Assembly: GCA_001767495.1 (NCBI GenBank)
Contig: MELA01000104.1
Coordinates: 1 to 32,875, forward strand
Origin: Acidobacteria bacterium RIFCSPLOWO2_12_FULL_65_11
GTDB lineage: Bacteria; Acidobacteriota; Vicinamibacteria; Vicinamibacterales; CAVVIG01
Reading direction: 5' to 3'
Length of the DNA stretch: 32,875 bases
Shown here: positions 26,203-32,312 of the stretch, piece by piece
Layout of the letters: every line of letters starts with the position of its first letter
Numbering within the stretch: position 1 is the stretch's first letter
Translations under genes and position numbers: made by a program
The notes under the pieces: model-generated
Told to the model about the DNA's origin: nothing
The model's input: only the letters and a program-made list of their open reading frames with translations
The model's database searches: none

Positions 26203-26528
26203 CGATAATCGTTTCTGATTGATACAGCTTCTCCATCCGATAATCTCCTGAGAGGGCTTCGGTCGCATCGCCATCTGTAAGAGATTGATAAACATACTCT
26301 TAGCGCTTACTAGCGACACGTCAGTCGCCGTGAAACTAATGGATGTTCGTATCGATAGAGACATTGGTAAGTATCAGATTTGATACACTACGTCTCTGAA
26401 ATAACGCTAAGTCTCTCATAGTTCTATCGCTGGTTCCTCGTTCGTTGGTCGGCTCCGGTGGCCCAAGTGTAAGTCGCGGGGCGGAGCTGTATCACTCTTA
26501 GCCAAACACACCAAAACAGGTCAGGGCC
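26203..26528 (+). promoter_or_regulatory. AT-richer control region of the exopolysaccharide locus
   Basis: No credible gene is seen in 26084-26528. The stretch is visibly richer in A/T than its neighbours. It holds four exact GTATCA/TGATAC half-sites (26220-26225, 26371-26376, 26381-26386, 26489-26494) and a GTATCG variant (26349-26354). The central pair forms GTATCA-GATT-TGATAC, nested in AGAGAC/GTCTCT (26357-26362, 26392-26397). ACTCTTAGC occurs twice (26296-26304, 26494-26502). These look like binding sites for a regulator; the promoter itself is not clear. Confidence 0.5.
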
Positions 26529-27548
26529 ATGGCAGACACCACACTTGCGTTGGCCGACGCTCGTGCCGCTCGTTTCGCCCGGCAGAGCGACGGGGCGGTC
26601 GAGCTCATCGGACGATCGCCGGCGATCACACGTGCCCAGGAACTGGTTCGTCGGGCGGCGGCAGTTGATGGCAGCGTGCTCATCACGGCCGAGGCCGGAG
26701 TGGCGCTGGACGGTGTCGCGCGAGAGCTTCACGCGCGGAGCCGTCACGCAACCGGGTCGTTCGTCCTCGTGGAGTGCGACGCGCGAGATCCAGCGCGGCT
26801 CGAGCGGCTGTTGTTCGGTACGGCTGTCGCCGATGGCTCGACTGACCTCGAGGGGGTATCGAGCGATAGCCGCCTGGCGGCCGTGCAGGGTGGGACGCTG
26901 TTCCTGCAGGACGTGACGGAGCTGTCGGCTGCGGCACAGGCGAGGCTGGCGCGGATTGCTCGTGACGGCGAGATGCGGATAGACGGTCAGCCGGCGGCGA
27001 CGCTGTTTCGGCTTGTTGCGGGCGCCGCGCCTGGCATCGAGACCGAGGTGCACGCCCACCGTTTCCGCGCCGATCTCTACCGGCGGCTCTCGACGGTGCG
27101 GATTGATCTGCCCTCGCTGCGTGAACGGGCCGAGGACGTGCCGGCACTGGCCACGCGGTTGCTGGAGGACAGCTGCGTCGCGCGCGGCCTTCCGACTCGG
27201 ACGTTGACGCACGCCGCGCTGGCGCTCCTTGGTGCGCTGATGTGGCCCGGGAACCTCGCCGAACTGCAGCGCGCCATCGAGCGAGCCCTCACCGCAGCAG
27301 ATGACGCCATGATACACGTCGAGCATCTGCTGCCCACGCTCCAACTGCAGCGCGCCCCGGCGCCGTTCCTGCCGGCTGGCAACCTGCGCGAGGCCCGACT
27401 GCGATTTGAGCGCGAGTACATCGCCACGGTGCTCCAGCATCACCAGTGGCGGGTCGCAGAAGCCGCCCAAGCCCTGGGCATTCAGCGACCAAATCTCTAC
27501 CGGAAAGCGCGCCAGCTTGGCATTCCGGTTGCGCGCCTATCGGAGTAA
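26529..27548 (+). CDS. NtrC-like regulator with degenerate ATPase motifs and Fis-type HTH
   Basis: 339 residues. The overall plan is that of sigma-54 enhancer-binding proteins: ELIGRSPAI at the start of the AAA+ domain, HRFRADLYRRLS and LPSLRERAEDVPAL, WPGNLAELQRAIERA, then a Fis-type helix-turn-helix (residues ~306-331). The working parts are lost. Walker A is AEAGVALD (54-61) where GExGxGKE is expected, Walker B is FLQD instead of FLDE, and the GAFTGA loop that contacts sigma-54 is replaced around 98-106. There is no receiver domain. It cannot be a normal sigma-54 activator and more likely binds DNA as a repressor, partner or sigma-70-type regulator. It stands just before the export gene. 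Confidence 0.85.
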   Translation: MADTTLALADARAARFARQSDGAVELIGRSPAITRAQELVRRAAAVDGSVLITAEAGVALDGVARELHARSRHATGSFVLVECDARDPARLERLLFGTAVADGSTDLEGVSSDSRLAAVQGGTLFLQDVTELSAAAQARLARIARDGEMRIDGQPAATLFRLVAGAAPGIETEVHAHRFRADLYRRLSTVRIDLPSLRERAEDVPALATRLLEDSCVARGLPTRTLTHAALALLGALMWPGNLAELQRAIERALTAADDAMIHVEHLLPTLQLQRAPAPFLPAGNLREARLRFEREYIATVLQHHQWRVAEAAQALGIQRPNLYRKARQLGIPVARLSE

Positions 27549-27564
27549 CATGGGGGCCACAGAC

Positions 27565-28455
27565 ATGCGAACCAAACTGTTGACGTTCGTCCTGCTTGTC
27601 GCGGGGCTGTCTGGCCTCGTGCGTGCACAGAGCGTCCAGGCACCACTGCCGTCCGGATCGGCGCCCGCCCAGCAGCGACCAACCACGCTGCCGACAGGTG
27701 AGCGCTACGTGATCGGCCCGCAGGACAACCTGTCGATTACGGTGGTGGACGAACCCGAATTGACCGGAAAGTTCCGGGTGGACAATGACGGCACCTTGAC
27801 GTTCCCCTTCCTCAATCGAGTACCGGTGGCTGGTTTGACGCTGGAGGAGCTTCAAGCCCGTCTGACGACCCTCCTCAAAGCGGGGGAGATCCTCAGGAAT
27901 CCGCAAGTGCGCGTGGAAGTCGACCAGTACAAGAGCCGCAGCGTGTACGTCATTGGCGAAGTACGAGTGCCAGGCAAAGTCACGATGAGTGGCACGACGC
28001 TGACGCTGCTCGAGGCGCTTGCGCTTGCTGGCTCACCCACCGCGAATGCCAGCAACGAAATCATTGTGGTGCATCCGTCGAGGCCGGGCGCAAGTGTTGG
28101 CGGCGTTGCGGGCGCCGACATTGAAGGCGAGCGCATCACCGTCAACCGCAGAGACCTGGAGCTTGGACGAGCGGGACGCGAGATTGTTCTGCAGGACGGC
28201 GACATCATCAACGTGCCAGTGGCACAGCGGTTCTACATCTACGGATACGTCAGAAACCCCGGTACCTACGTCCTCGATCCGGGAATGACTCTGCAGCAGG
28301 CGATCGCGCTGGCGGGCGGCCTGACCGACCGCGGCTCGGATCGGCGCATCAAGGCCAAGCGACAGGTTAACGGCAAGCTGGCCGAAATGTCGCTGCAGCT
28401 CGAAGACAAGATCCTCGCAAACGACACCATCGCCATCCCATCCCGCTTCTTCTGA
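27565..28455 (+). CDS. Wza-like polysaccharide export protein
   Basis: 296 residues from ATG 27565, which gives a clean signal peptide (MRTKLLTFVLLVAGL, cleavage near Ala21) and has GGGGG 8 nt upstream; ATG 27550 is an in-frame alternative. The Poly_export domain covers ~46-122 (YVIGPQDNLSITV), followed by two SLBB domains (~126-218 and ~223-294). Such proteins form the periplasmic/outer-membrane channel for exopolysaccharide. There is no lipobox cysteine, unlike Escherichia coli Wza. The gene follows the regulator by 16 bp. No Wzc-like kinase gene is present in the visible part of the locus. Confidence 0.9.
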   Translation: MRTKLLTFVLLVAGLSGLVRAQSVQAPLPSGSAPAQQRPTTLPTGERYVIGPQDNLSITVVDEPELTGKFRVDNDGTLTFPFLNRVPVAGLTLEELQARLTTLLKAGEILRNPQVRVEVDQYKSRSVYVIGEVRVPGKVTMSGTTLTLLEALALAGSPTANASNEIIVVHPSRPGASVGGVAGADIEGERITVNRRDLELGRAGREIVLQDGDIINVPVAQRFYIYGYVRNPGTYVLDPGMTLQQAIALAGGLTDRGSDRRIKAKRQVNGKLAEMSLQLEDKILANDTIAIPSRFF

Positions 28456-28533: not shown

Positions 28534-28557
28534 GCGCCGGGGGTGGGACCCCGGCGC
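28534..28557. repeat. REP-like hairpin just before asnB
   Basis: GCGCCGGGG (28534-28542) and CCCCGGCGC (28549-28557) form a perfect 9-bp stem with loop GTGGGA. It ends 9 bp before the asnB start codon, so it may hide the ribosome site. It matches the hairpin at 15398-15421 in core and loop. A weaker GCGAG/CTCGC pairing (28513-28517, 28531-28535) lies next to it. Confidence 0.75.
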
Positions 28558-28566
28558 CACTATATA

Positions 28567-30420
28567 ATGTGCGGTATCGCCGGCCTGGTACGCCGGGACG
28601 GGCCGATTGAATCGGATCCGTCGCCGGCGCTCGGCGCAGCGCTTGCGCACCGCGGCCCAGACGGTCATGGCGTCTGGTGCTCGCCGAGGCGCGACGTGGT
28701 GCTCGTCCATCGGCGCCTCGCGATCATCGATCCCAGCCCCGCCGGCGCGCAGCCGATGAGCACTTCCGACGGCCTCCATCACATCGTCTTCAACGGCGAG
28801 GTCTACAACCATCGCGAGCTACGGCGATCGCTGGAAAGCCAGGGCGAGTTGTTTTCGACCCGCAGCGACACCGAAGTGCTGCTGCGGTTGCTGGTCCGCG
28901 AGGGTCCATCCGCGCTCGCGCGGGTGCGCGGCATGTTCGCGCTCGCGTGGTGGGACATGCGCGAGCGCGCACTCGTCATCGCCCGCGATCGCTTCGGCAT
29001 CAAGCCCCTGTATGTCGCGGCCGGTGAAGAAGCCGTGGCGTTTGCATCGGAAATCCGTGCGCTCGTGTCCTCTGGTCTCGTGTCCGGCACGGTCGATCCC
29101 GCGGGTGTCCTCGCCTATCTTGCGTGGGGAAGCGTGCCGCCGTCGCTCACCTGGGCGGCGGGTGTCGAGAGCCTGACACCGGGCACCTGGCGGCGGTGGC
29201 GTTCTGGACGCGCACCGGAGGAGCAGCGCTTCGCCAGCCCGACCGACGCCCATGCGCGCCCATCCACGTCATGCGATCAACGTGAGCTCAAGGACCGGAC
29301 CCGCGAGGCCGTCGAGGGCAGTGTCGTCGCGCACCTGGTCGCGGACGTGCCGGTTGGCCTCTTCCTGTCTGGAGGCATCGATTCGTCGGCGATCCTTTCC
29401 GCGGCGGCTCATGCCGGCGTCTCTGGGCTGCGCACCTTCACCGTCAGGTTCGATGACGGATCTTCCGAGCACGAGTATGCCCGGCTCGTCGCGTCCGCCT
29501 TCGGCGCCGAGCACCGGGAGCTCGTCGTCGATCCGTCACACGTCGTCGCCGATCTGCCGCGCATTCTTGGTCATCTGGACCAGCCGACTCTTGACGCGGT
29601 CAATTCGTTTTACGTCTCGCAGGCCGTGGCGTCGACCGGCATCAAGGCGGTCTTGTCGGGCACGGGCGGCGACGAGTTGTTTGGCGGCTATCCGTCGTTC
29701 CGTCGTCTGCCGGCGGCGGTTCGCTGGAAGCGGCGCCTGCGCCCCGTCGTGCCGGCTCTTTCTTCCGTCGTGGCCGCTGGGTTGCCCGAACGGCTGTCGG
29801 GGCGCTGGCAGCACTTCATGTCGGGCAACGGTGGCATGAACGCCGCCTATCGCGCGCAGCGAGGGCTCTTCATGCCGTCAGAGATCGAAGGCTTCGCGGG
29901 ACCGGCTCTTCGCGATCGGTGGAGGCCGGCGGCCGATCGGCTCTTGGCCACCGAGTCGGCGATCTTTGACGTCCACGCGACCAGTCCGGCAGGTGAGGTG
30001 GCGGGACTCGAGACGCGGATGTACCTGTGCTCGCAGCTGCTGCGCGACCTCGACGCGATGTCGATGGCGCATTCGCTCGAGGTCCGTGTGCCGCTGGTCG
30101 ATCACGTCTTGGTCGATGCCGTCTGGCCCGACCTCGGCGCCCACCCCTCGCTGATGCGCAACAAGCGATTGCTGCACGAGACGCTGGCCCGGCCGCTGCC
30201 GCCCGCCTCCGTCGAGCGGCCCAAGCAGGGGTTCATCCTGCCGTTTGAACGCTGGATCGGTGGCGAGCTCGAACCGTTCGTGCGTGATGGGATGCGCCAG
30301 CTCGCCGCCGGCCGCTGGATCTCGGCAGACGCCCCCGACCGAGTGTGGCAGGCGTGGCGCGAGGGTCGCGCACACTGGACGCGACCCTGGAGCCTCGCCG
30401 TCCTGGGACATTTTCTCTAA
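28567..30420 (+). CDS. asnB: Glutamine-hydrolysing asparagine synthetase
   Basis: 617 residues from ATG 28567. This start is fixed by chemistry: it places Cys2 (MCGIAG) as the N-terminal nucleophile of the glutaminase domain; the open frame begins earlier but would bury it. The synthetase domain has the ATP-pyrophosphatase loop SGGIDSS (268-274). The enzyme makes asparagine from aspartate, or in exopolysaccharide loci amidates or modifies a sugar or other acid; the location beside export and methyltransferase genes favours the latter. No ribosome site is visible in the 9 bp between the hairpin and the start. A methyltransferase gene follows after 15 bp. Confidence 0.93.
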   Translation: MCGIAGLVRRDGPIESDPSPALGAALAHRGPDGHGVWCSPRRDVVLVHRRLAIIDPSPAGAQPMSTSDGLHHIVFNGEVYNHRELRRSLESQGELFSTRSDTEVLLRLLVREGPSALARVRGMFALAWWDMRERALVIARDRFGIKPLYVAAGEEAVAFASEIRALVSSGLVSGTVDPAGVLAYLAWGSVPPSLTWAAGVESLTPGTWRRWRSGRAPEEQRFASPTDAHARPSTSCDQRELKDRTREAVEGSVVAHLVADVPVGLFLSGGIDSSAILSAAAHAGVSGLRTFTVRFDDGSSEHEYARLVASAFGAEHRELVVDPSHVVADLPRILGHLDQPTLDAVNSFYVSQAVASTGIKAVLSGTGGDELFGGYPSFRRLPAAVRWKRRLRPVVPALSSVVAAGLPERLSGRWQHFMSGNGGMNAAYRAQRGLFMPSEIEGFAGPALRDRWRPAADRLLATESAIFDVHATSPAGEVAGLETRMYLCSQLLRDLDAMSMAHSLEVRVPLVDHVLVDAVWPDLGAHPSLMRNKRLLHETLARPLPPASVERPKQGFILPFERWIGGELEPFVRDGMRQLAAGRWISADAPDRVWQAWREGRAHWTRPWSLAVLGHFL

Positions 30421-30435
30421 GCCACTCATCGATCT

Positions 30436-31578
30436 ATGCCGAACCCGCGGGCGATCGCGAAGCGGATGCTCTTGCGGACCGTTGAAGTCCTCACCAGCCG
30501 GCATCCGGTTCTGCTTCCGCAAATCGCCTCCGATGAGGCCTCCACGCTCGATGTGACGGCTCCGTACCGTGTCGAAGGACCAACGTTGGACATCCAGATC
30601 CACAACCCGGGGCGCGGCGAGCTGACGGCGACCTTGCTGACCCCGAATGGCACGAATGCCTCGCGCGTGCATTGGCGCTCGAAACCGATTCCATTCAACG
30701 GGCCGGCGATGCTCGGCTTCGATCTGACGAGCGGCCAGGTTCGAGTGGGAGGGCAGGATTGCGGCCACGCCCCCGTTCCGTTGCCAGCGCGTCGCTTCTC
30801 GTGGGCCCTCACGATCCGCGACTCCGGCCGCGAGCGCTCGCGGGTTACCGGACACTATCTGCCTGGCAACGGCGCGGTCGGCGACGACTACTATGCCGGC
30901 GGGAATTACGTGGACTATGAGGCCGAGAGCCTCACCACCCGCGAGTTAGTCGTGGCGCTGGCAAGGCAGTATCCCTTCCGCGGCGTGGCCGTGGAAATCG
31001 GCTGCGCCACTGGCGGCCTGTTGGAGGATCTGGGAAGGGCCGGCTTCGACGCGATTGGCGTCGACTACTCCGCGTGGGCTGTCGGCCGGGCCCGGGAACG
31101 GGTAGGGCAGGATCGCGTCTGGCAGGTCGACGTCGAAAAGGATGAATTGACCGAGACGCCGCTTGCCGCACGCGCCCCGTTCGGCGCGTTGATCATGCTG
31201 TCTGTCCTCGAGCACTTCGCCGATCCGTTCGGCGTCCTCGAACGCGTCGGCCGACTGGTCGGACCGGGCGGGCGTCTCTTCCTGACGACGACCAACGCCG
31301 GAGGCGTCGGCCGATGGCTGTTCGGCCGCGATTGGGAGGGCTATTTCGACTGGACCCATCGCGGCGTCGATGCTGTCAGCGCCGAGTCGCTCAAGACGCA
31401 TCTCGACCGGTTGAGCTGGAAGATCGAGCAGTTCGGAACGAGCCTGGTCTGGGACGGCAACGCCGATCCAACCCATGCGACGCTCCGCGAGTGGTGGGTC
31501 TCGGACGCGAGATTTCGCCGGCTGCTGGCCGAACGGGACCTGGGCGATCTGATCACATGTGTGGCCACCAAACGATGA
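30436..31578 (+). CDS. Class I SAM-dependent methyltransferase with N-terminal beta domain
   Basis: 380 residues. The C-terminal two-thirds are a Rossmann-like methyltransferase with motif I VEIGCATGG (186-194), the acidic strand end DAIGVDYS and the post-motif LIMLSVLEHFADP. The first ~150 residues are beta-rich and unrelated to catalysis; they may bind a lipid-linked or polysaccharide acceptor. The target is unknown, but the position between asnB and another methyltransferase points to O-methylation of an exopolysaccharide. Its stop overlaps the start of the next gene (ATGA). Confidence 0.85.
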   Translation: MPNPRAIAKRMLLRTVEVLTSRHPVLLPQIASDEASTLDVTAPYRVEGPTLDIQIHNPGRGELTATLLTPNGTNASRVHWRSKPIPFNGPAMLGFDLTSGQVRVGGQDCGHAPVPLPARRFSWALTIRDSGRERSRVTGHYLPGNGAVGDDYYAGGNYVDYEAESLTTRELVVALARQYPFRGVAVEIGCATGGLLEDLGRAGFDAIGVDYSAWAVGRARERVGQDRVWQVDVEKDELTETPLAARAPFGALIMLSVLEHFADPFGVLERVGRLVGPGGRLFLTTTNAGGVGRWLFGRDWEGYFDWTHRGVDAVSAESLKTHLDRLSWKIEQFGTSLVWDGNADPTHATLREWWVSDARFRRLLAERDLGDLITCVATKR

Positions 31579-32312
31579 TGGCGGACGCAGGCGTTGGCCC
31601 CGGCCTCATCGCGCGTCTCAAGCGCGCGGTCGGTCCTCGCGTGACAACCAAGGTTCGATGCCTTGTGCGGGGGTACGGCCTGCCGAGATGGGGCAATCTG
31701 CGGCGTACAAGGCCGTTCTCAACGCAGTACGGCTTCGAGCGCGGCACGCCGATCGATCGCTACTATCTGCACCAATTTTTCGAGCTGCATCGCCACCTCA
31801 TCACAGGACGCGTGCTCGAGGTGCAGACCAGCGCGTACACCAAGTTGTTCGGCCGCGACGTCACCCAGGCCGACACCTTTGACATCGTGCCTGAGTTCGA
31901 TCCGACGTATGTCTGCGATTTCGCCCATTGCGAGGGCATCCTGCCAGACGAAGCGTACGATTGCGTGCTGTTGCCGAATACGCTTCCTTGTTTCCGGGAG
32001 CTCGACCGCTCGCTGGCGCAGGCGTTTCGCATCGTCCGTCCGGGCGGCGCGATTCTGGCGTCCACGGGAGGGTTGCTGCCACTCACGAGGGATGTCCCCG
32101 AGTACTGGCGCCTGACGCCGGACGGGTGGCGCGAACTCCTGGCCTCGGCATGGCGCGGCGCCGAACTGACGGTTGCTGAACACGGGAATTGTCTGGCGGC
32201 GGTTGGTGCGCAGATGGGCCTCGCGCTCGAAGAGCTCACCGACGCCGAGCTGGACGTCCACGATCCTCGCTATCCGGTTCTGACGACAATTATTTGTCGA
32301 AAGCCATGTTAG
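31575..32312 (+). CDS. Methyltransferase-like protein, second of the locus
   Basis: 245 residues. ATG 31575 overlaps the previous stop by 4 bp; ATG 31578 is also in frame. YGFERGTPIDRYY and FDIVPEFDP-type segments, plus RIVRPGGAILAS, mark the class I methyltransferase family common near glycosyltransferases. Motif I is unusual: VLEVQTSAYTKLFG, where related proteins have ExG after the strand, so the glycine is replaced. Activity should not be assumed. The role is probably polysaccharide modification, inferred from neighbours. Confidence 0.78.
   Translation: MMADAGVGPGLIARLKRAVGPRVTTKVRCLVRGYGLPRWGNLRRTRPFSTQYGFERGTPIDRYYLHQFFELHRHLITGRVLEVQTSAYTKLFGRDVTQADTFDIVPEFDPTYVCDFAHCEGILPDEAYDCVLLPNTLPCFRELDRSLAQAFRIVRPGGAILASTGGLLPLTRDVPEYWRLTPDGWRELLASAWRGAELTVAEHGNCLAAVGAQMGLALEELTDAELDVHDPRYPVLTTIICRKPC

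Follow-up and report, generated by a model that had tools for sequence, protein, structure and literature searches.

The window analysed here, a 32,875-nucleotide stretch of acidobacterial DNA, encodes an NtrC-type regulator belonging to a single clade in which the ATPase and sigma-54-contacting motifs have been lost and the loss conserved, which is maintained by selection, and whose genes stand, in most neighborhoods examined, at the head of exopolysaccharide (EPS) operons behind a conserved palindrome specific to their own upstream regions. The protein is quite likely to function as an ATPase-dead, sigma-54-independent autoregulator at a sigma-70-type promoter of its own EPS operon. A first-pass annotation of the sequence had proposed a protein repurposed for sigma-54-independent control of EPS genes, and this proposal draws support from the clade, the signs of selection, the operon position and the predicted sigma-70-type promoter. 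The relevant features are:

26221..26243, forward strand: conserved block GATACA-N9-(G/T)CCGATAA, with a sigma-28-like -10 sequence
26349..26364, forward strand: upstream candidate operator site GTATCGATAGAGACAT, 22 bp before the main one
26371..26386, forward strand: main candidate operator, palindrome GTATC-AGATTT-GATAC, overlapping the -35 position (TTGATA, 26380-26385)
26380..26408, forward strand: predicted sigma-70-type promoter position TTGATA-N17-AACGCT, with a weak -10
26468..26493, forward strand: JUMPstart/ops-like leader element TGTAAGTCGCGGGGCGGAGCTGTATC
26529..27548, forward strand: open reading frame of the ATPase-dead NtrC-type regulator, with a degenerate AAA+ domain (about residues 26-275) and an intact Fis-type HTH (293-328)
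27565..28455, forward strand: polysaccharide export protein (Poly_export/SLBB, Wza/EpsE-like), the next gene of the operon, with a likely ATG start at 27565
28543..30420, forward strand: asparagine-synthase-type amidotransferase of the EPS operon
30436..32312, forward strand: two overlapping open reading frames of the EPS operon, a methyltransferase (30436-31578) and a weak methyltransferase match (31314-32312)

The regulator gene runs from an ATG through 339 codons to a TAA without a break in the frame. Searches of its product against Pfam recovered Sigma54_activat at residues 26-192 (E 1.5e-24, 87 bits), AAA_lid_14 at residues 198-275 (60.9 bits) and HTH_8 at residues 293-328 (40.3 bits), all above their cut-offs, which, together with the matching fold, places it in the NtrC-type superfamily as defined by Sigma54_activat and the Fis HTH; Pfam found no receiver domain in residues 1-25. 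Inspection of the motifs shows that Walker A reads AEAGVALD as against the canonical GESGxGKE, Walker B reads GTLFLQDV as against GTLFLDEI, and sensor I reads AGA as against ATN, with loss, respectively, of the lysine, the D-E pair and the asparagine, while the position of the GAFTGA loop is occupied by the unrelated stretch FGTAVADGSTDLEGV. The protein hence lacks the Walker A lysine, the Walker B D-E pair and the GAFTGA that characterize an active bEBP. More than 20 other NtrC-type genes are present in the same genome, the closest being 37% identical to the regulator, and those compared retain the motifs with few exceptions. The AlphaFold model has a pLDDT of 87, and a fold search against the PDB placed NtrX and VpsR at the top (VpsR as the second-ranked protein), followed by other NtrC-type AAA+ domains; in the model, the AAA fold is retained despite the lost chemistry. 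The earlier description of an unbroken frame shorn of Walker A, Walker B and GAFTGA is confirmed by the motif comparison with the paralogues and with 54 relatives, as is the persistence of the fold plan and the Fis-type HTH by the Pfam, AlphaFold and PDB matches. The further statement that every residue set needed for ATP use and sigma-54 contact had gone holds for the ATP and sigma-54 motifs but goes too far, as the arginines of FRxDLxxR and the sensor II asparagine are still in place; the sensor II arginine has become an alanine. NtrX (Brucella, PDB 5m7n-p) provides both the best NCBIfam match (NF051870) and the best fold match; however, the score against this equivalog is 192.1 bits versus a cut-off of 600 and the receiver is missing, so the regulator is not a member of the NtrX family.

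The loss extends to the relatives. When 54 short and long homologues from one order were compared with 13 canonical proteins, the Walker A lysine was found in two of the former versus all 13 of the latter, the GAFTGA aromatic residue (F/Y) in 0/54 versus 12/13, the Walker B aspartate in 2/54 versus 13/13 and the sensor I asparagine in none versus 12, with the R, N, L, Y and K of the HTH being invariant across all 54. A maximum-likelihood analysis unites the 54 proteins in one clade (SH-aLRT 100), and the same result is obtained after removal of the motif columns, the trees being quick, bootstrap-free ones with a limited set of canonical proteins; the question raised in the first-pass annotation, whether the loss is conserved in a clade, is thus answered in the affirmative. 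Sixteen orthologues from the same family of genomes are 44-71% identical and have open frames (one orthologue, L027, interrupted by a masked stretch, was excluded from the tree). Pairwise dN/dS for four pairs ranges from 0.12 to 0.24 over the whole gene, 0.14 to 0.26 over the AAA part and 0.05 to 0.15 over the HTH, with synonymous sites near saturation in one pair (L001/L013). On these comparisons, the motif loss is a fixed trait of a monophyletic clade on which purifying selection acts. The decay of a single copy among relatives that keep their motifs, raised as the contrary outcome, is rejected in view of these dN/dS values and of the conservation of the loss across the clade, 52 of the 54 members being without the Walker lysine and all 54 without GAFTGA.

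The nearest outgroup found is a pair of proteins, L171 and L172, from the same class but a different order, which adjoin the clade in the tree and retain a receiver, a Walker A motif of the form GERGTGKE or GESGTGKE, GAFTGA or GSFTGA, and Walker B, along with an HTH nearly identical to that of the clade (ERTNLYRK). Accordingly, the motif loss is a derived state, and an ordinary response regulator of this type is the likely ancestor. Members with long N-termini also lack GAFTGA. The Walker A lysine survives in two divergent members, L144 and L145, in both of which GAFTGA is gone; hence, ATP binding was not lost in a single step. The former, which lies in the first-branching pair, combines the Walker lysine with a Response_reg match above the cut-off, and the two could represent intermediate stages. 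This distribution suggests an order of loss in which the sigma-54 loop went first, then the Walker lysine and then, in the short forms, the receiver. Among the 297 genomes drawn from the phylum, no motif-less member was recovered outside the order at the threshold used, and a search of genome contigs for related loci returned only a distant match in Novosphingobium. A clade devoid of receiver, ATPase and sigma-54 loop, together with an outgroup bearing GAFTGA, makes it possible to test directly by what route an ATP-driven activator becomes a simple regulator bound at a promoter.

In terms of gene-neighborhood, trigger factor, encoded divergently, and a tRNA come before the regulator gene, which opens a same-strand EPS run of more than 25 kb that continues to near the end of the contig; beyond the methyltransferases it encodes a deacetylase, many glycosyltransferases and a flippase (to about G000:C104:52900). 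In most of the neighborhoods examined in relatives, the regulator likewise precedes wza and/or asnB, often after trigger factor.

Alignment of ten upstream regions revealed near-invariant blocks, the main one being the palindrome GTRTC-N6-GAYAC. It contains the hexamer TTGACA, or TTGATA in the window, at the -35 position and in many orthologues forms part of a promoter of the form TTGACA-N17-CATATT. A TGTATC half-site lies exactly 22 bp before the main palindrome in all ten promoters. The exact palindrome occurs upstream of 17 of 22 short regulators versus 0/15 control operons, in which the leader element is the only shared feature, and these 17 occurrences in 37 upstream regions compare with a mean of 0.055 expected from dinucleotide shuffles. 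Among the complete upstream regions, one (L025) lacks the palindrome and three (L018, L031 and L040) carry imperfect versions. The double-site array without mismatch occurs once in the whole genome, before the regulator; in relatives, some strict matches to the operator pattern (L164, L166) fall in unrelated or coding DNA. Counting against a sigma-70 promoter in the window itself is its poor -10, and a consensus promoter scan of this copy called no promoter. No conserved sigma-54 (-24/-12) element was found in the upstream regions, sigma-54-like strings being sporadic and at varying places. About 150 bp upstream of the main palindrome lies the conserved block at 26221-26243 (GATACA-N9-GCCGATAA), which may constitute a second promoter; GCCGATAA matches the sigma-28 (FliA) -10 consensus. 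A related palindrome, GTRTC-N4-TTGACACA, is seen at a promoter-like place before a gene for a RodZ-like HTH protein in two related genomes (L167, L168).

These patterns suggest that the regulator probably binds the candidate operator, depends on sigma-70 and regulates its own expression. An enhancer-binding-protein ancestor, having lost its receiver, its ATPase activity and its sigma-54 contact, would have become an ordinary DNA-binding regulator, dimers of which could bind via the Fis-type HTH to the tandem GTRTC-N6-GAYAC sites 22 bp, i.e., two helical turns, apart. With the main site over the -35 box of the sigma-70-type promoter, the entry of the housekeeping RNA polymerase would be controlled, while the dead AAA+ fold could serve as a scaffold for the formation of dimers or oligomers and perhaps for a ligand. 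An operator placed across a strong -35 box usually points to repression. Given sigma-54-independent control, repression relieved by a signal is slightly favored, because in most relatives the -35 box under the candidate operator is close to consensus. Lying two turns further upstream, the second site could promote cooperative binding or, as an alternative, activation with a ligand by analogy with FleQ at pel.

A specific form of sigma-54-independent control would be a VpsR-like, ligand-sensing activator, whose dead pocket binds c-di-GMP or another signal and which recruits sigma-70 polymerase. The presence of VpsR among the closest folds, the EPS context, the retained arginine after Walker A and the tandem sites, one of them upstream of the -35 and equally suited to activation, are all in keeping with this; however, degradation is strongest in the Walker A region, by which FleQ engages c-di-GMP, and this version is possible but rather unlikely. 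It is less probable that another protein controls the operator and promoter, with the regulator acting elsewhere and the co-conservation reflecting gene order alone. Sites of the TGTATC/GATACA type could indeed serve other regulators, but the exact palindrome persists in those 17 of 22 promoters of the regulator gene, including those of 42-44% identical homologues from other families, and is absent from the 15 other leader-element operons, with the full array being single in the genome. The protein could also be ATP-independent yet still linked to sigma-54, as an anti-activator that damps sigma-54 transcription by occupying enhancer sites or by entering mixed hexamers with intact NtrC-type proteins, of which the genome offers the above-noted relatives. 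The retention of the AAA fold, the FRxDLxxR arginines and the sensor II asparagine would be expected if subunit interfaces still matter; nevertheless, the lack of a conserved -24/-12 element and the position of the conserved palindrome on a sigma-70-type -35 box render this distinctly improbable. Finally, that the gene is a functionless pseudo-regulator whose motifs were lost under relaxed selection, as the degraded motifs and the imperfect or absent operator in a few relatives might be taken to indicate, is barely credible in light of the intact frames, the clade-wide fixation of the loss, the invariant HTH, the low dN/dS and the co-conservation of promoter and gene.

Sigma-54-independent autoregulation at a sigma-70-type EPS promoter may be placed beside several known systems. 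VpsR has a receiver-type N-terminal domain and binds c-di-GMP, whereas the window regulator has neither a receiver nor a recognizable nucleotide site. VpsR of Vibrio cholerae (PDB 7v2b) nonetheless shares with it the NtrC-type fold and the absence of GAFTGA, and has the sigma-54-independence and control of EPS genes that are proposed for the window regulator, the relationship being one of fold and not of a shared EPS-specific subfamily. GAFTGA is absent from VpsR and from the NtrC proteins of Rhodobacter capsulatus and Caulobacter, all of which work at sigma-70 promoters (PMC10274813). The two NtrC proteins are sigma-54-family activators turned to such promoters after loss of the L1 loop, but they retain a receiver that is phosphorylated and depend on ATP binding; the window clade has lost the ATP motifs too and is predicted to have an EPS target. 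FleQ of Pseudomonas is comparable as an NtrC-type protein that controls an EPS target, pel, through two palindromic boxes at a sigma-70 promoter and needs no ATP hydrolysis to do so (PMC10723142); however, its Walker A/B and GAFTGA are intact and, together with FleN, it serves sigma-54 promoters as well, unlike the window regulator with its complete loss of these motifs. Hence, GAFTGA-less NtrC-type proteins at sigma-70 promoters and EPS control by VpsR and FleQ are already known, with the published sigma-54-independent relatives keeping, as far as stated, at least ATP or c-di-GMP binding. Relative to these accounts, what appears to be new is that an entire clade has lost the ATP site completely and is apparently dedicated to EPS operons within the order, together with the defined candidate operator and the linked UpxY-associated element (see below).

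The leader between promoter and regulator holds a further conserved element, TGTRASYSASRGGGCGRAGCY (26468-26493; L058-L085, L174-L181), which is phylum-wide and almost absent from controls: 43 matches were recovered in 27 genomes of the family versus one control match, and it is present in 17 of 247 genomes of the phylum with no control matches. One of the 43, a second match in the own genome (L043, one mismatch), lies inside a restriction-type gene and was judged to be due to chance. The element is followed by short regulators, by lipoprotein/long-regulator operons and by genes of MarR-like and FemAB-like type; beyond the order it is followed by three UpxY/RfaH-type genes, an export protein and FemAB-like proteins, as well as one radical-SAM-like and one contractile-tail-like gene (all these names being assigned by eye). 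The own genome encodes a second NusG homologue above the UpxY cut-off, as do 22 of the 27 family genomes with this one included, and in eight of them the UpxY gene is encoded in the same orientation as, and a few kb ahead of, the leader element or a long regulator; neither operator nor leader element was found near the own-genome copy. A search of 26330-26600 against Rfam did not match JUMPstart (RF01707) at E up to 10, with an E. coli control scoring 60 bits, nor any known riboswitch or other Rfam leader. An HMM of the element also misses the E. coli JUMPstart, on account of one-base gaps; in a gapped alignment the two are moderately similar, the resemblance being modest for the window copy, with 5 of 1000 shuffles scoring as high.

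A leader position before polysaccharide operons coupled with a specialized NusG paralogue in the genome, as expected of JUMPstart/ops systems, is found here, and the element is probably an ops-like recruitment site, short of a proven JUMPstart member, providing a second layer of control. It resembles the RfaH/ops (JUMPstart) and UpxY systems in leader sequence and position and in the presence of a UpxY-type protein in the genome, but is one base short of the ops core and, as noted, does not match the Rfam model; the detailed mode of recruitment is known only for E. coli RfaH (PMC7593976). Given its occurrence before EPS operons and UpxY/RfaH-like genes, it may be a recruitment element for UpxY-type antiterminators. 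In the proposed mechanism, it would load an antiterminator of the UpxY/RfaH type after initiation, such that the operon of more than 25 kb could be read to its end. A broader reading, plausible though short of probable, is that of a two-step polysaccharide switch acting at initiation and antitermination, which combines a dead AAA+ clade, a pocket rebuilt as a signal or interaction site and an undescribed UpxY recruitment element. The exact operator and the ops-like element offer concrete and cheap targets for bench tests.

At one locus (L178; G142:C46 near 14271), the gene behind the leader element looks like one for a contractile tail sheath protein, so that the element may also control a contractile injection or tail-like operon. 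The long homologues with pseudo-receivers (L063, L064, L084, L081 and L059) are preceded by a conserved lipoprotein-like gene with the leader element ahead of it, the lipoprotein-like product bearing D-x-N/D-x-D-G repeats.
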